Source: Winogradskyella psychrotolerans
GTDB lineage: Bacteria > Bacteroidota > Bacteroidia > Flavobacteriales > Flavobacteriaceae
Length of the DNA: 64,000 bases
Assembly (NCBI RefSeq): GCF_018860565.1
Contig: NZ_JAHKPS010000029.1
Location: 295,411 to 359,410 of the forward strand
Direction of reading: 5' to 3'
In this document: piece after piece, positions 25,490 through 40,307 of the stretch
Layout of the letters: each line of letters opens with the position of its first letter
Numbering within the stretch: position 1 is the first letter of the stretch
The notes under the pieces: generated by a model
What the model saw: only the letters and a program-made list of their open reading frames with translations
Told to the model about the DNA's origin: nothing
Database searches by the model: none
Translations under genes and position numbers: made by a program

Positions 25490-26197
25490 TTAATGCATTG
25501 AATTAATTCGAATGCTAGCCTTTATGAGAGCCATAGCTCTTACCTTTTTTAACTTGACATCTTTAGGTTGATGATGCTGGTTTTGAGAAACCAATTTAAT
25601 ATAGTCGTCACCTTTATCAGATTTCTGCACATACTTCACGCTAACATACTCTTCACCAGCAACCTCTACGGATACGAGGTACATTTCTCCCCAGAAGACA
25701 TCATTTTGAAAGTCTTGTATTTTTTTATAGGCCACAATATCACCACTCTTTAATAACGGATACATACTATCTCCAGTTACATATAGTGCACCATCACATT
25801 TAGGTAGGTTCGGAATACTAATGGTATCAATAGGCCTTTGATCTGAATTGTTTTGAAATAAATTAACCAAACCTGCTGTTGCTTCAATATTATACAAAGG
25901 AATAGACTGCTCTTCGTAGTTTTTGTCAGTCCTTAGTTTATATACAGTTGTGTTTTCGTTTAACTGTTTGTTATTCGGGCTGTTCTTCATCTGTAAGTCT
26001 AAATCATCGTTAAAAACCGTGTTTAAATCAAAGTCTTTTGCTATTAAAAAATCAATATACTTATTTGGTATAAATTTTTTATTACCAGATTCTAATAACG
26101 AAACATCCTTCTGAGTAACGCCCACAGCCTTTGCAAACTGGGACTGATTAAGCCTCAGGCGCTCTCTACTTTGCTTTATTTTTTCAAACGATTTCAT
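25490..26197 (-). CDS. prophage repressor, LexA/S24-type HTH protein
   Basis: 235 residues from the ATG at 26197 (a TTG at 26203 is also in frame). An N-terminal HTH of the XRE type (LNQSQFAKAVGVTQKDVSLLESG, about 16-38) is followed by a linker and a C-terminal S24 peptidase domain. Catalytic Ser144 lies in TGDSMYPLLKSGD and Lys188 in YVSVKYVQK. An Ala-Gly cleavage site is seen at A108-G109 (ATAGL). The layout predicts RecA-stimulated self-cleavage and induction by DNA damage. It is divergent from the Ner-like gene, with operators between them. Confidence 0.9.
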   Translation of the reverse strand: MKSFEKIKQSRERLRLNQSQFAKAVGVTQKDVSLLESGNKKFIPNKYIDFLIAKDFDLNTVFNDDLDLQMKNSPNNKQLNENTTVYKLRTDKNYEEQSIPLYNIEATAGLVNLFQNNSDQRPIDTISIPNLPKCDGALYVTGDSMYPLLKSGDIVAYKKIQDFQNDVFWGEMYLVSVEVAGEEYVSVKYVQKSDKGDDYIKLVSQNQHHQPKDVKLKKVRAMALIKASIRINSMH

Positions 26198-26215
26198 CTG
26201 CAATATTCAAAAAAG

Positions 26216-26275: not shown

Positions 26276-26479
26276 ATGTACACAAAAAAATTTATAGCCC
26301 TCACTGTAGATCAAATAAAACGAGTAAATGCTAGTGCTCTAGCTAAAACTTTCGATTGTTCATCTTCATACGTATCTAGAATTCTAAAATCTACAGAATT
26401 GCCTTCTAATGAAAAGGCACAAAAAATATTAAAAGCAGCTAAAGAGATAGTTGATCATTACGAATCTATTAATTCATAA
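26276..26479 (+). CDS. Ner/Cro-like HTH regulator
   Basis: 67 residues from the ATG at 26276. A single HTH (VNASALAKTFDCSSSYVSRILK) occupies the centre. Its position, first gene rightward from the divergent repressor and before the transposase, is that of Mu ner, which represses early transcription and the repressor promoter. An upstream in-frame TTG at 26255 overlaps the promoter and was not used. The next gene starts 10 bp after its stop. Confidence 0.75.
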   Translation: MYTKKFIALTVDQIKRVNASALAKTFDCSSSYVSRILKSTELPSNEKAQKILKAAKEIVDHYESINS

Positions 26480-26489
26480 TACAATCATT

Positions 26490-28478
26490 ATGTACGAAAA
26501 CTATTTAAATACTATAGGTATTGATCAAGAGGTTTTTTACGAACACTTGTCAATTCTAAGTTATGACAATTTCCAGAAATGGGTGCAACGCGGTAAACTA
26601 AAGCGTATTCGTACTAAAGGTCGTGGCCGCACTGGTCTAATAGACTTCGCCTCAATTCCAGAAGACCTAAAGAATCTTATAATTAGAACCTTTGGTAATC
26701 CTTATCTTAAAGATGATCGCCAAACCTTCACTAACCAACTTACTACAGATCATGCTGCTATCGAATTTTATAAACAATACCAATACGAAGATGGCAGAGG
26801 CATAGCCAATAACAAGCAAGCCCAATATATCTGCGAAGCCGAAATACTAAACCTATACAACGAAATCATTTCAAACTACGAGGTTAAAGTACAAGAGCAA
26901 CGCAGAAAATCGAACAAAGGCAGCCTGAAAAAGAAACTCTCAAGCATCATTAACGATCTTAAATCAGAATGCTACCCTAACACACAAACCAAACGCTATC
27001 CTCATAAGCTACCTTCTAACGTGCGTGCGCTAGACAGAAAAGCAGCAGGTTACAGCGAAGAGGGCTACGACTTCCTAGTTCACAAAAACGCAGGAAACAA
27101 AGCCGCTCAAAAAATCAAAGGCGACGTAGCTAAGTGGCTATTAGCGCAATATTCAATGCCAAATAAAATAGTGGTACCAGTACTACACTCTTTATACAAC
27201 CGTGAAGCTCAAATAAAAGGATGGCCAGAGCTTTCTGAGTCTGCCATCTACAAATGGTTATACGAGCCACAGCAGGAAAAAGTATGGTTAGTCTCTAGAG
27301 ACATTACAGCCTACAAAAACAAATACGGCCATAAACTAGTAAGAGACAAAGAGCAATGGTTCCCTAATGCATACTGGGCAATTGATGGCTCTAAAATTGA
27401 CTGGATGCACTATTACGACAACCAACTTGGTGCAGCAGCTAAATTTAAAATAGATCCTGTAATAGATGTCTATTCCGAAAAGATCATAGGCTGGTCTTTC
27501 TCAGAAACTGAAAACCACATAGACCATTTTAATGCCGTTAAAATGGCGTTTAACACCGCGCAATCAAGACCGTATTTATTTACATACGATGGCCAGTCTG
27601 GACACACTTCAAAACGTATGCAAGAACTATACGGCAAAATGGTAGCCAAAAAAGGTGGTGCACACTACAGACACGCAGCATACGAGCACAGCTCACCTGT
27701 AGAAGGCATCTTTAACAGACTACAACAGCAAGTGGTAAACTACTGGTGGTTCTCAGATAAACAATCTGTAACTGTCAGAATGGAAAAGAATAAGCCAAAT
27801 ATGGACTTCATTCTAGATAATAAAGACAAACTACCAACCCAAGACAAACTATTAAAAGCATGGGAGCTTTGTGTAGAAGAATGGAACGCCGCTAAGCACC
27901 CTAAATACAACAAATCTCGTAACGAGGTGTACGCAGAGGAGCAACTAATGAAAGAAGAGGTTAACTACCTAGACATGATAGATATGTTCTGGGTGTACAC
28001 ACCAGACACTGTTACTTATAAAGCAGATGGTATAAAAGTGCAAATCGCAAACGAAAAATACCACTTCGAGGTGTACAACGTCAATAACGAAATAGATCTA
28101 AGATTCCGTGAGCGTTGGGTAAACAAAAAATTCTTTGTTAAGTACGATCCAGACAACCTAGACAACTACGTGTCGCTTTATCTAAAATTACCAAATGGCG
28201 ATAAGCAATTTGTAGCAGATGCACAGCCAGTACGTAAGCAACAGCAAGTACCAATCTTAATGCAACCAGGCGATAAAGAGCAATGGCAAAAAGATTATCA
28301 AGTACGTAAAGTCGAAGAAACCGCTGCTAAAAAGCAAATAGAACAAATCCAAAGAGAAACTGGTATCACACCAGAGCAATTAATAGCAGATCAAGAACTA
28401 AAAATAAAGTTCGGTGGCAAACTACCAAAGCAACAACGCAGCGATGTAGAAGCCGACTCTTTTTATCACAGAATGTAA
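26490..28478 (+). CDS. Mu-type DDE transposase (MuA-like)
   Basis: 662 residues from the ATG at 26490. The N-terminal DNA-binding part (SYDNFQKWVQRGKLKRIRTK) resembles the Mu-type winged HTH. A second DNA-binding region follows, then the rve/RNase H catalytic core with the DDE triad D299 (WAIDGSK), D367 (FTYDGQSG) and E405 (SPVEGIFNRL). A beta-barrel Mu-C domain follows, and the tail is rich in Gln/Lys and may contact the MuB-like ATPase. It catalyses integration and replicative transposition, acting on the end sites at about 25055 and 63839-63875. All catalytic residues are intact. Confidence 0.95.
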   Translation: MYENYLNTIGIDQEVFYEHLSILSYDNFQKWVQRGKLKRIRTKGRGRTGLIDFASIPEDLKNLIIRTFGNPYLKDDRQTFTNQLTTDHAAIEFYKQYQYEDGRGIANNKQAQYICEAEILNLYNEIISNYEVKVQEQRRKSNKGSLKKKLSSIINDLKSECYPNTQTKRYPHKLPSNVRALDRKAAGYSEEGYDFLVHKNAGNKAAQKIKGDVAKWLLAQYSMPNKIVVPVLHSLYNREAQIKGWPELSESAIYKWLYEPQQEKVWLVSRDITAYKNKYGHKLVRDKEQWFPNAYWAIDGSKIDWMHYYDNQLGAAAKFKIDPVIDVYSEKIIGWSFSETENHIDHFNAVKMAFNTAQSRPYLFTYDGQSGHTSKRMQELYGKMVAKKGGAHYRHAAYEHSSPVEGIFNRLQQQVVNYWWFSDKQSVTVRMEKNKPNMDFILDNKDKLPTQDKLLKAWELCVEEWNAAKHPKYNKSRNEVYAEEQLMKEEVNYLDMIDMFWVYTPDTVTYKADGIKVQIANEKYHFEVYNVNNEIDLRFRERWVNKKFFVKYDPDNLDNYVSLYLKLPNGDKQFVADAQPVRKQQQVPILMQPGDKEQWQKDYQVRKVEETAAKKQIEQIQRETGITPEQLIADQELKIKFGGKLPKQQRSDVEADSFYHRM

Positions 28479-28500: not shown

Positions 28501-29343
28501 ATGAAAGCAGAATTTAAACTACAAGTAGCAAACGAGCTCACAGCACTTTGCCAAGCATCAAGCCAAGCGCACATGGCTAAATTACTAGAAGTCTCAACAG
28601 CAATAGTAAGTCAAGTCATTAATAATAACTGGAAGCTTATCAGTAACGAAATGTGGCGCATTATTCAAAAACGCCTATTTATAGATTTCGAGTGGAAAAC
28701 AGTGGCTATTAATAACTTCAAACTGGTAACACATTTTTTAAACACAGCAAAAAGCCAAGGTATAAGTGTTGCGATTTCAGATACTGCAGGTAAATCTAAA
28801 AGCGAAACTTTCAAATACTTCTGGAAGCAAAACATAAACAACACCATATATGTGCAATGTAAAACTAGCTGGACGAAAAAGACATACCTAAAGGCATTAC
28901 TTACTGCAGCAGGACAAGAAAATTATGGTAAAACCGAAGAGCTGCTAAACCGTTTCATTAAACACCTCATGTCGTTGGAACATCCAATGGTAATACTAGA
29001 CCAGGCAGATAAGCTAAAAGATCCACAATTAGACCTCTTTATGGACTTCTACAACGATTTAAACGGACACTGTGGCTTTATGATCTCTGGAGTAAAAGCC
29101 TTAGAAAAACGAATATTAAAAGGTGTACAGCACAAAAGAGTGGGTTACGAAGAGTTTTATAGCCGTATAGGTCGCAAGTTCATAGAGCTAGACCACATCA
29201 CATTAAACGATGTAACGCTTATATGTAGAGCTAACGGTGTTGAAGACGAAGCCGAAATAACCTACATATACAACAATTGCGAGGACGATTTAAGACGTGT
29301 AAGACGAGACATAGACATATATAAACTAAAACAAACAGCATAA
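28501..29343 (+). CDS. MuB-like AAA ATPase, transposition target protein
   Basis: 280 residues. An N-terminal HTH (QAHMAKLLEVSTAIVSQVINNNW, about 22-44) is followed by an AAA ATPase domain with a P-loop-like SDTAGKSKS (93-101) and Walker B MVILDQADK (163-171). Length and architecture match Mu B, which selects target DNA, stimulates MuA and gives target immunity. It lies 22 bp after the transposase gene in the canonical A-B order. The P-loop departs from the GxxGxGKT consensus, as is common in these phages. Confidence 0.88.
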   Translation: MKAEFKLQVANELTALCQASSQAHMAKLLEVSTAIVSQVINNNWKLISNEMWRIIQKRLFIDFEWKTVAINNFKLVTHFLNTAKSQGISVAISDTAGKSKSETFKYFWKQNINNTIYVQCKTSWTKKTYLKALLTAAGQENYGKTEELLNRFIKHLMSLEHPMVILDQADKLKDPQLDLFMDFYNDLNGHCGFMISGVKALEKRILKGVQHKRVGYEEFYSRIGRKFIELDHITLNDVTLICRANGVEDEAEITYIYNNCEDDLRRVRRDIDIYKLKQTA

Positions 29344-35980: not shown

Positions 35981-35989
35981 GTGCTTGTA

Positions 35990-36050
35990 TATAACACCAA
36001 GCTATGAAGCTGTTGTGAGGCACGAGCAATAGTTTATAGCGACTGTTGTA
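35990..36050 (+). repeat. attC-like hairpin, copy 2
   Basis: Outer arms TATAACA (35990-35996) and TGTTGTA (36044-36050), all paired with one G-U; inner arms GCTAT (36001-36005) and ATAGC (36036-36040); 4-nt and 3-nt spacers; 30-nt loop. Same plan as copy 1 upstream of gene 35738-35980. Confidence 0.45.
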
Positions 36051-36141
36051 AATAGTTGTTTTTTAATACTTCACAACGGATAATTAACCTTATGCCGTTA
36101 TTAAAGCATATCATATCAATAAATTTTATATATTTGCTAAC

Positions 36142-36271
36142 GAGAACACGAAACAAGAGCAATCTTGATTCAATTTTATTAACGATAGCGAAAGCCACAC
36201 CAAGGTTCACCCCATGAAAAGCGGGTAATCCGATTCTTGTAATCGTGTTCTCAAACCTAAAGTGTGGCTTT
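36142..36271 (+). ncRNA. candidate pseudoknotted RNA upstream of antirepressor gene
   Basis: Two perfect 10-bp pairings cross each other: GAGAACACGA (36142-36151) with TCGTGTTCTC (36243-36252), and AAAGCCACAC (36191-36200) with GTGTGGCTTT (36262-36271). Between them lie a 5-bp hairpin with a GCAA tetraloop (36154-36167) and smaller pairs AGGTT/AACCT (36203-36207 with 36254-36258), ACCC/GGGT (36209-36212 with 36223-36226) and CGATT/AATCG (36231-36235 with 36241-36245). The last competes with the first long helix, so a two-state switch is possible. The RNA ends 21 nt before the next ATG. No known family recognised. Confidence 0.5.
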
Positions 36272-36292
36272 TGTGTATAATAACTTTTCGAT

Positions 36293-36811
36293 ATGAGAAC
36301 AGAAAAGAACGCTGGCAAGCTTAATATGCAAGTTACAGAAGGTTTGGCTGTAGCAGTCTATCCAAACCATGAACATGAGTTTTTATTACCTACTAAAGAA
36401 GTCGCTTTGGGTTATGGTTCAAGTGCGTATTCAATAAGAATGGCAAAAAAAAGACATTCAGATGAATTGATTGAGGGAAAACATTTTTTGAGCAACGTAA
36501 CAATTTGTCACGGTGCCTCAAAAGGTTCATCAAGAGCGACAATGTGGACCAAAAGAGGTATTGTTCGTTTAGGCTTTTTTATAAAAAGTGAGCGTGCTAA
36601 ACTATTTAGAGATTGGGCAGAGGATTTAATTATTAAAGTAGACGAACATAAAGATTTGTTTGGCCAAATTGCGTCTACACCACCAAAATTACCTCAAAAA
36701 CGTAATCATAACCGTTTAACGCAGGCAAGACTTGTAGATTTAATGGCAGATGTAGTGCGTATAGAAAACGCAGACCTTCGTCTTAGTATCACTAAAAAAC
36801 TAGGACTATGA
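36293..36811 (+). CDS. phage antirepressor/BRO-N-like protein
   Basis: 172 residues. The middle part (about 20-125) has the layout of P22AR-N/BRO-N-type antirepressor domains: YPNHEHEFLLPTKEVALGYG, an HTH-like stretch, EGKHFLSNVTICHG, and TMWTKRGIVRLGFFIKSERA followed by KLFRDWAEDLI. The C-terminal part is helical and charged. Such proteins counter phage repressors or regulate phage genes. An unusual structured leader precedes it. Overlaps the next gene by 4 bp. Confidence 0.72.
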   Translation: MRTEKNAGKLNMQVTEGLAVAVYPNHEHEFLLPTKEVALGYGSSAYSIRMAKKRHSDELIEGKHFLSNVTICHGASKGSSRATMWTKRGIVRLGFFIKSERAKLFRDWAEDLIIKVDEHKDLFGQIASTPPKLPQKRNHNRLTQARLVDLMADVVRIENADLRLSITKKLGL

Positions 36812-38655: not shown

Positions 38656-39153
38656 TTAAAGCTGTTTAAATCGTGTTATAATTTCATTACTCACATGGTC
38701 GTTCCATTGTTTATCAAACATATCGGACTCACCCATAAATTGGCGTTTAGTCATTTTATAATTAATTCTTCTTAAGTGTGCTTTTATTTCAACAGATTTA
38801 CCTTTTCCCATAAAATTCCTGTTGATGTATTTTTCAACTCTTGCAGTTGCATTCACAGAAAGTCCTTCATTATGCACAGCGGCATAAGGTGATTCAGCTG
38901 TAAAAACAACTTGCTCAAGAGAACTGCTTTCTACTCCAATAGAATTAAACATACTATTTGAAATTATTAGCAATAAATATTGCAAAGGATGTTTTCGTGG
39001 TTCCCAAGCTTCAAACGTAGAACCGTGCCAACCTTGGTCATAAAAATTCTGATGTATAAAGTCCATACCTTGTATTTCGGCATCCTTTTGCAGTTTCCGC
39101 TTTAAGACTTCAGCCATTCCAAGAAAATCTGGTGTTTTATTTATTTTACTCAT
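38656..39153 (-). CDS. phage virion morphogenesis protein (Mu gpG-like)
   Basis: 165 residues. The order portal-MuF-this gene is that of Mu 29-30(F)-31(G). Motif-like segments fit the family: WHGSTFEAWEPRKHPLQYLL and YAAVHNEGLSVNATARVEKY, the AxxHNxG pattern seen in gpG-type tail-completion/HK97 gp10-like proteins. It overlaps the MuF stop by 1 bp (TAATG), indicating translational coupling. Confidence 0.78.
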   Translation of the reverse strand: MSKINKTPDFLGMAEVLKRKLQKDAEIQGMDFIHQNFYDQGWHGSTFEAWEPRKHPLQYLLLIISNSMFNSIGVESSSLEQVVFTAESPYAAVHNEGLSVNATARVEKYINRNFMGKGKSVEIKAHLRRINYKMTKRQFMGESDMFDKQWNDHVSNEIITRFKQL

Positions 39154-40307
39154 TAGTTACGCTTTATACGTTCTACTTGCTTTCTGTCTTTAGAAATTAC
39201 AATCACTTCTGTAATGCTCGGATAGGCTTTTTTGTCTTCTAAAGCTTTGTTAACTTCGGTCACCACTTTGGTAATGCTGTTTTTATTATCAATTAAATCT
39301 ATAATAACAATGGCTACTCCTTGTTTTTCTGCAGTAGTAAATGTGTCTTTAAAATCTAGCTTAAAACGTGTAACACGTTCTGCTGTTTTCTTACCAATGA
39401 GATAAGTGCTTTTAGTGTCTTTAGGTAAAATGGTAGCATCAATCTTAGGTTGAATTTTTAAGGTCATACCCTTGTCTGCTAATGTCTTGGCAACCGTGTA
39501 ATTGCTATATAGCGTTTCTGCCTCTGCAAAATCACTTACAAATACTTTACCACCACTTTTACTATTGTACTTGGCTTTACCGTAATTAGATTGCAGTTTA
39601 AAACTCTCAAAAGCAACTTTTACAGCTTTTTCGTCACGCTTTGGCATTATATAATATGGATGAGAATTTTCGTTAAATACAGATCCTGTTTTACCGACAT
39701 TAATGCTAAAGTCAGGTTTCATAAAGTCTGTATTAGGTGTGAAGCTAGATGCAGGACTGTCTGTTTGTACAACATAGCAACGACATCTCCAGTCGTTAGG
39801 TGGGTAAATTCTATCCCAAATCTTATCGTCTATTGCAGCAACAAATCCATCAAGGTCTTTGTGATCATCTCTTACGTGCTCATCGCCTACAGTTTTATAT
39901 CTTAGATTAGGATATCGGTCTTTATTACGCTGAAACTGCTGCCACTTAGCTGCCATTTGTGCCGATGCTTTTGCGGTTTGATATTCTGCCTGCAGGTAAT
40001 TGACGTTGTACGTCGGATGCTTATCTAATACCAACTTTTTAAAGTCGTTAAAACTGCGCTCTTTGCCATCTTTATCGGTTAAATAGGTGTTGAACTTTTG
40101 AAGCTCTTGATACGTCTTAGCTGCAGAAAAACGGTAAATGTTTTGTTTGAGTTGCTGTACGGTTTTGGTATTAGCAGCATCAAACTTGGTAAACCTTGCG
40201 CCATAACCTTCAGAAATGCCTTTATTAAGTTCTTTGTAAGTGGTGGTTAATAGTTCCTGGTCTAAATCGGTTGGCTTTAGTTGTCCAGAATGCAGCTCTT
40301 TTGCCAC
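39153..40307 (-). CDS. MuF-like minor head protein with C-terminal nuclease-like domain
   Basis: 384 residues if it starts at the GTG at 40307. The MuF head-morphogenesis core is at about 100-180 with the diagnostic HVRDDHKDLDGF and PPNDWRCRCYVV. The C-terminal domain (about 251-384, nucleotides 39557-39156) is separate: VFVSDFAEAETLYSNYTVAK, then ADKGMTLKIQPKID and a Rossmann-like end. This layout resembles CdiA-type tRNA-nuclease domains often fused to MuF proteins, but the acidic catalytic residues are not clearly kept. The frame stays open upstream for about 41 more codons, up to an A10 run inside the portal gene, with no other start codon, so the true N-terminus may come from frameshifting. 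Confidence 0.86.
   Translation of the reverse strand: MAKELHSGQLKPTDLDQELLTTTYKELNKGISEGYGARFTKFDAANTKTVQQLKQNIYRFSAAKTYQELQKFNTYLTDKDGKERSFNDFKKLVLDKHPTYNVNYLQAEYQTAKASAQMAAKWQQFQRNKDRYPNLRYKTVGDEHVRDDHKDLDGFVAAIDDKIWDRIYPPNDWRCRCYVVQTDSPASSFTPNTDFMKPDFSINVGKTGSVFNENSHPYYIMPKRDEKAVKVAFESFKLQSNYGKAKYNSKSGGKVFVSDFAEAETLYSNYTVAKTLADKGMTLKIQPKIDATILPKDTKSTYLIGKKTAERVTRFKLDFKDTFTTAEKQGVAIVIIDLIDNKNSITKVVTEVNKALEDKKAYPSITEVIVISKDRKQVERIKRN

Follow-up and report, generated by a model that had tools for sequence, protein, structure and literature searches.

The window analysed here, a 64,000-nt stretch of Winogradskyella psychrotolerans DNA taken at its full length, lies in a Mu-like prophage that is close to Winogradskyella phage Peternella_1 (Winoviridae). 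Its genes follow the same order as in Peternella: an S24-type repressor gene (25490-26203, minus strand; Pfam), a gene in the transposase place with a weak integrase-core match (26451-28478; Pfam 21.3 bits, below the cut-off), a gene for an AAA protein where transposase B would stand (28501-29343; Pfam), and a gene for a Mu F-like head protein (39153-40307, minus strand; Pfam). The RNA element described below sits at the end of the early region, before a plus-strand gene of 172 amino acids (36293-36811). When the protein of this gene was compared with PHROGs, the top match was phrog_23341 (E 8.3e-16), a family whose function is unassigned there, and the next six families were anti-repressor (best E 5.6e-5); in Pfam, a Bro-N match was below the cut-off. 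Judged by these matches, it is probably an antirepressor-like gene (ant), one that may help to decide between dormancy and killing. The S24-type repressor is its likely partner.

Two perfect 10-bp pairings that cross each other had been reported for this region by the first-pass annotation, and their letters were verified. In helix P1, the 5' strand a1 (36142-36151, GAGAACACGA) is fully complementary to 36243-36252 (UCGUGUUCUC). In helix P2, 36191-36200 pairs with 36262-36271, and the helix grows to 13 bp with one G-U pair (36188-36200/36262-36274). The crossing of P1 and P2 makes the RNA pseudoknot-capable. Under fixed spacing limits the crossing pair scored 54.2, which none of 1000 dinucleotide shuffles equalled (maximum 46.4, mean 15.1); helix P1 alone is less notable: when the leader was shuffled by mononucleotides, 15 of 5000 versions equalled its score. 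The interior contains helix P3 (AGGUU, 36203-36207, with AACCU, 36254-36258), hairpin 1 (36209-36226, pairing 36209-36212 with 36223-36226, from a helix check) and hairpin 2 (36231-36245, CGAUU-CUUGU-AAUCG, pairing 36231-36235 with 36241-36245). The minimum free energy (MFE) of the 88-nt core was -30.8 kcal/mol (z -5.09; none of 200 shuffles as good). Its MFE fold includes both P2 and P3 and prefers another interior, without hairpins 1 and 2; P2, P3 and the two hairpins together gave -29.2 kcal/mol. The segment b1 (36153-36159) adds 7 bp to helix P1 by pairing with 36234-36240 (one G-U), and the resulting 17-bp duplex a1b1:b'a' was calculated at -23.2 kcal/mol. Alternatively, 36154-36158 can form with 36163-36167 the GCAA-loop hairpin that had also been annotated (-6.9 kcal/mol). 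Hairpin 2 shares bases with helix P1, so the two are mutually exclusive and hairpin 2 becomes possible once a1b1 is gone; the competition between the small hairpin and the long arm, and hence the two conformations seen in the first pass, was thus confirmed. As annotated, the ATG at 36293 follows 36271 after a gap of 21 nt. No run of U directly follows P2 in the window. Four features came in addition to what had been annotated: P3, the full 13 bp of P2, the recurrence of the long arm at the start of the gene, and a promoter box that lies 5 nt ahead of 36142.

The promoter box, TATATTTG (36129-36136, plus strand), follows the -7 consensus TAnnTTTG given for Bacteroidota in the available portions of PMC2483708 and PMC7366714. 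In 38 of 54 loci, the window included, such a box was found 3-5 nt ahead of a1 (nine CCTAA-class loci counted as box-less only because a1 was misplaced), against 11 of 11718 background positions in the same upstream regions. With the box at this distance, the transcript should begin with a1 itself. The transcription start is predicted at about 36140-36143, rather than downstream of 36142, a position that the first-pass annotation had considered incompatible with the element. No TAnnTTTG box for a separate ant promoter was seen by eye between P2 and the ATG. The non-coding stretch 35985-36137 has one full copy in the genome. Its 153 nt are 97.4% identical in Peternella, in contrast to the diverged RNA that follows, and it is a putative promoter and perhaps also an operator. 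Furthermore, in five loci of one leader class (L006, L014, L015, L076 and L083, by eye) an inverted repeat like TTTGCCCC...GGGGCAAA flanks a1 and overlaps the box, and may be an operator or an RNA hairpin.

The sequence of a1 recurs at the gene start, and its pairing partner is therefore antisense to the gene start. In the window this address, a' (36246-36253, plus strand, UGUUCUCA), comprises the 8 nt that separate hairpin 2 from P3 and is the exact complement of a2 (36294-36301, plus strand, UGAGAACA), which is made up of the UG of the start codon and the six bases that follow; the 8 nt that hairpin 2 leaves free are thus the 8 nt complementary to the target. The protein search yielded 65 homologous loci (36 on viral contigs and 29 in genomes), and the leaders of 60 (34 and 26, respectively) were inspected. 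After exclusion of duplicates, of loci from other phyla and of those in which no such RNA was seen by eye, 31 loci were used; together with the window and Peternella they made a set of 33, or 29 after removal of near-duplicates. The free search, the swap test on helix P1 and the in-register test described next all used fixed gene starts. When each leader was searched freely against the gene starts of the 29 loci, the mean antisense score was 22.25 for the own gene and 15.90 for others, and the mean copy score 18.59 and 14.66; neither difference was reached in 10000 permutations. However, the window's own start (score 19) ranked only third of 29 in this search. Seven comparison loci without such an RNA gave antisense scores of 13.8-20.6 and copy scores of 12-20, and three of them (19.2-20.6) were level with the window. 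Single 8-nt matches are not rare, and the case rests on the whole set rather than on one locus. The swap test on helix P1 also separated the pairs (own 30.54, other 15.02; 0 of 10000 permutations), with the own partner ranked first in 25 of 29 loci and a score of at least 20 in 28 of the 29, the exception being L010 (15.8).

For the in-register test, a' was set from the promoter box and helix P1 alone, and the gene was not consulted; four of the 33 loci were box-less and unusable. The mean complementary run was 7.38 nt for own and 2.75 nt for other genes (29 loci, 0 of 10000 permutations; 8 nt in the window). Runs of at least 7 nt were found in 19 of 29 own pairs against 22 of 812 other pairs, and 10 of the 29 loci were below 7; in L009, L012, L025 and L069 helix P1 lies one base beyond the register and the match was lost. 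An earlier register test had given 9.15 against 2.87, with 23 of 26 own against 20 of 650 other pairs, but it was biased, because a' was chosen by its fit to the own gene and L005, L008, L010, L011, L015, L018 and L086 were left out; the unbiased test bears it out. In those seven loci the anchors of a' were placed by hand (one base off in L005 and L018), and six of them (L005, L008, L010, L011, L015 and L086) do not show the register that starts one base into the AUG. As for the automatic scan for crossing pairs, its choice of helix was wrong in L002, L003, L004, L019, L025 and others, and no pair was found in L069 and L071, where the start was miscalled. In 15 of 33 loci, as counted by reading rows, the free a' and the target run differed in length by at most one base, chiefly in the window's class and the GGCAGG and CTAGGA classes; another leader class has a longer free stretch of 12-16 nt, usually matched only in part. 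In L086 (Dysgonomonas, at about 1400-1500), a leader of a different class has a 19-nt complementarity to ATG-15..+3, which is not the start-codon register.

Covariation across homologues, the check proposed in the first pass, was found both in P2, which carries compensatory changes, and in the joint variation of a1, a' and the gene start. The a':a2 pairing was followed in alignment A4, 20 sequences picked from the window's own class, where 94.4% of cells were paired (covariation score 0.484, 28 double changes, 0 of 500 shuffles) and slid versions reached at most 54.4%. P2, whose covariation was seen in A4 and in alignment A2 without the window, was paired in 89.2% of A4 cells and P3 in 83.0%. 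The columns of helix P1 were paired in only 50%, which we read as misalignment of the 5' end. A hairpin around the target (CUUUUC/GAAAAG, 36284-36307, plus strand), whose 12-nt loop would hold the AUG and a2, is possible: the swap test favoured it (own 14.48, other 12.57, n=28, 0 of 10000), but its covariation in A4 was weak (65% paired, against 80.8% when slid by -1). Just 5' of P2, a motif like UUAACRAUARCGAA is conserved (36176-36191 in the window, A4 columns 50-67) and is a candidate processing signal.

The bodies of the leaders differ in sequence between homologous loci. When the leader was used as a DNA query against phage records, the sole convincing match was the promoter part of Peternella (query 1-38, 100%); the body was not found by DNA similarity because it evolves too fast. 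In 397 genomes at E 1, matches occurred in 347 including the own genome, the others being short and probably due to chance. At gathering thresholds, the sole Rfam match in the window was a tRNA, and 20 IMG/VR loci gave none. The nearest Rfam family to the element was c4-2 (RF02944), with 21.9 bits and E 0.031 over 301 nt, below the gathering score of 41; when 55.6 kb were searched, the element (L039) was not listed at E 10. Homologous leaders in the same place matched c4-2 in five of 18 sources (53.5, 41.8, 39.3, 33.4 and 32.2 bits), of which only L073 (53.5) and L084 (41.8) exceeded the cut-off, and the other 13 had no match at E 10. The c4-2 layout, with an outer helix, an inner helix of GGUG/CACC type (P3 in the window) and two hairpins in order, is present in the window. 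Its putative membership of c4-2 fails on score, yet is supported by structure and homology. A covariance model, R1, was built from 16 relatives with the window left out (11 of 14 consensus pairs with compensatory changes), and it matched 36191-36271 (E 9.4e-8) as its sole match in the 64 kb up to E 10. Among 15 further leader-bearing loci it matched only L003, and missed Peternella, L069 and the C4 RNA of phage P1, which speaks for a diverse family and a narrow model.

C4 (RF01695) belongs to the same clan (CL00128) as c4-2, with which the window shares the core of P2, P3 and two hairpins. No C4 match was obtained in the window, and phage P1, the positive control, scored 68.8 bits. The arrangement is that of phages P1 and P7: a promoter, a leader with copies of the target, a structured RNA and then the antirepressor operon. 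The phage P1 record annotates the same order a1-b1-c4-a2-b2-icd-ant, and cmscan found both C4 and c4-a1b1 (RF03163) there; the a1b1 leader of phage P1 (L100 131-212) also matches Rfam isrK at 35.1 bits, below the cut-off of 50. As in C4, an outer stem encloses two inner hairpins with the address adjoining hairpin 2 (by eye), and a loop segment is complementary to part of the 5' leader as well as to the region where the gene downstream starts. According to the available portions of PMC5320573, RNase P removes the leader of the phage P1 precursor by cutting at the base of the outer stem, and these together with those of PMC12197685 describe C4 as a processed RNA of 77 nt that acts in trans. The window differs from phage P1 in promoter type and in its address. 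In phage P1 two split addresses (a' and b') pair upstream of icd, whereas the window has one 8-nt address that lies over the start of ant itself, from the U of the AUG into the first codons; the b1:b' pairing is present, but no b2 was seen. Both a' and b' appear to be present, by eye, in L104, L105, L111, L112, L116-L119 and L121. Within the known C4 kind, the element would thus be new in form, with one contiguous address aimed at the start codon. The c4-2 model of 79 positions covers neither a1 nor the target, both of which are proposed here for the window, and Rfam types c4-2 as 'sRNA' and C4 as 'antisense'. The C4-like sRNAs of Acinetobacter baumannii are reported in the available parts of PMC5320573 to have the C4 fold, a variable a' and many bacterial copies and to be apparently processed from longer transcripts; those parts give no targets for them, whereas the adjacent downstream gene is proposed for the window. 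The sar RNA of phage P22 likewise blocks translation of an antirepressor by antisense pairing, and the C4 fold is not mentioned for it in the available portions of PMC12197685.

Computation gave the helices, the family relationship, the covariation that links a1, a' and the start of the gene, and the placement of the promoter box. From these we infer that the RNA is processed, that it represses and that it takes part in lysogeny or immunity. In all likelihood 36142-36274 is the precursor of a c4-2-like antisense RNA of C4 type that is co-transcribed with, and represses, the antirepressor-like gene, by the following steps. Transcription would begin at a1. In the unprocessed transcript, a1b1 would pair with b'a' over 17 bp, closing the address and opening hairpin 2. 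RNase P would then take off the 5' leader at the base of P2, as it does in phage P1 C4; this step is carried over from phage P1 by analogy and makes the region of 36188 the probable cut site and 5' end of the mature RNA. Once the leader is gone, hairpin 2 would form and leave a' single-stranded, and the free a' would pair with the UG of the AUG and six further bases of the ant mRNA, so that initiation would be blocked. The pairing of a' with its target was calculated at -9.1 to -10.9 kcal/mol; the extended helix P1 (-23.2 kcal/mol) is stronger, and therefore the leader should need removal before a' acts. Since hairpin 2 shares bases with helix P1, the precursor and the active form should exclude each other.

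The same covariation would arise if the RNA were never released and the leader worked as a switch in cis, with a' pairing either to a1, which turns the gene on, or to the gene start of the same transcript, which turns it off. The distance of about 40 nt between a' and a2 in one transcript and the missing U run directly after P2 in the window suit such a switch. However, the close analogy with C4, a processed trans-acting RNA of 77 nt in the available portions of PMC5320573 and PMC12197685, and the stability of the core on its own (z -5.09) argue against it, and we consider it unlikely, though worth keeping in mind. The first-pass annotation stood in reading a structured, pseudoknot-capable RNA with two conformations upstream of an antirepressor-like gene, which it probably controls, but its proposals of a riboswitch-like, protein-binding or ribozyme-type element were not supported, as none of them explains why an arm covaries with the start-codon region, which an antisense RNA does. 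A leader that senses a metabolite or a protein would fit the pseudoknot and the two conformations, but its central strand is variable and tracks the downstream gene start, also in loci with other genes, and no Rfam riboswitch was matched in the window at gathering or over 301 nt at E 5, so that this reading is very improbable. The order of the crossing helices resembles that of HDV-like ribozymes. A self-cleaving ribozyme is nevertheless barely credible, given that the sequence of helix P1 varies freely among homologues and that no Rfam ribozyme matched at gathering (window and 20 loci) or at E 5 over 301 nt. Ribozyme and riboswitch were both dropped on the grounds that no family matched and helix P1 follows the gene start. 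Chance, or inverted repeats at the DNA level without RNA function, can draw on the AT-rich leader, in which short complementary runs are common (as in the comparison loci and the shuffles of helix P1 alone), but is next to impossible in view of the shuffles of the crossing pair, the compensatory changes in P2 and the swap tests, which gave 0 of 10000 in protein-found and RNA-found sets alike.

The RNA-found sets matter because the protein-found set was selected by hand. R1 was run on whole genomes under strict filters and gave matches in at least 3 of 397, at least 9 of 395 and at least 23 of 121 genomes (overlapping sets); the counts are lower bounds, as the first two runs miss the window's own element (no match in its genome, G000). 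Most of these matches lie before genes other than ant, chiefly of two families of 77 and about 91 aa. The resulting sets were not chosen by protein or gene start, and include close relatives, nearly all of one genus. In the first, 21 of 22 loci were usable (L102 has no gene), and the score was 17.37 for own and 13.66 for other genes (0 of 10000). In the second, 24 of 27 were usable (two without the motif, one without a gene), with 16.95 and 14.20 (0 of 10000), and L138, L148 and L149 break the address rule. L104 and L105, which lie 8 kb apart in one genome, have near-identical genes, and the leader copy, the hairpin-2 loop and the target differ together between them, which reads as a natural compensatory change.

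Downstream of their shared promoter part, the window and Peternella differ through the RNA and the N-terminal domain of the protein (weak Bro-N in the window, KilA-N in Peternella), and the proteins converge in the last 42 codons (76%). L069 has 83% protein identity with the window and a different address: in the earlier register test, where a' was placed by its fit to the own gene, the a' of window and L069 matched their own genes over 8 and 9 nt and each other's over 2 nt. For phages P1 and P7, a difference of 4 nt is reported to be enough for heteroimmunity (PMC5320573, available portions). By analogy, phages of the window, Peternella and L069 types should be heteroimmune, which is a prediction. 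In a wider reading, to which we give about an even chance, the c4-2-type RNAs of Bacteroidota would work as a programmable device, an antisense 'lock and address', in which a self-masking precursor carries an address that is rewritten together with its 5' decoy and the downstream gene start. The device would serve phage immunity by swapping cassettes of address and DNA-binding domain, as between the window and Peternella, and would also control chromosomal genes that stand alone and encode small proteins (mostly 77 and about 91 aa), with several copies per genome.

With the antisense reading, c4-2, which Rfam types only as an sRNA, gains a concrete proposed target and mechanism, and C4-style antisense immunity is extended to Mu-like phages of Bacteroidota. 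The address rule, by which a' is the complement of the UG of the AUG and the following bases, makes targets predictable from sequence and may perhaps predict immunity groups. Among the papers listed in the literature searches, which lacked the original description of c4-2, none was found to name a c4-2 target, and priority is not established; in one of these searches RF02944 was mentioned, among the papers listed, only in the Rfam 15 paper.

Outside the ant loci, the RNA of L102 is c4-2-like and has no adjacent downstream gene by the rule of the script; it is perhaps a relic. In L101, L104, L105, L106-L122 and L127-L153, RNAs of c4-2 type precede small-protein genes (mostly 77 and about 91 aa). 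Three downstream proteins from the RNA-found sets (L103, L104 and L106) were scanned against Pfam and PHROGs, and none had a Pfam family above the cut-off. By eye, the open reading frames flanking L101 and L104 were without sign of a prophage, and a genome contains up to four copies of such RNAs (G590). These small-protein loci are possibly stand-alone modules under antisense control.
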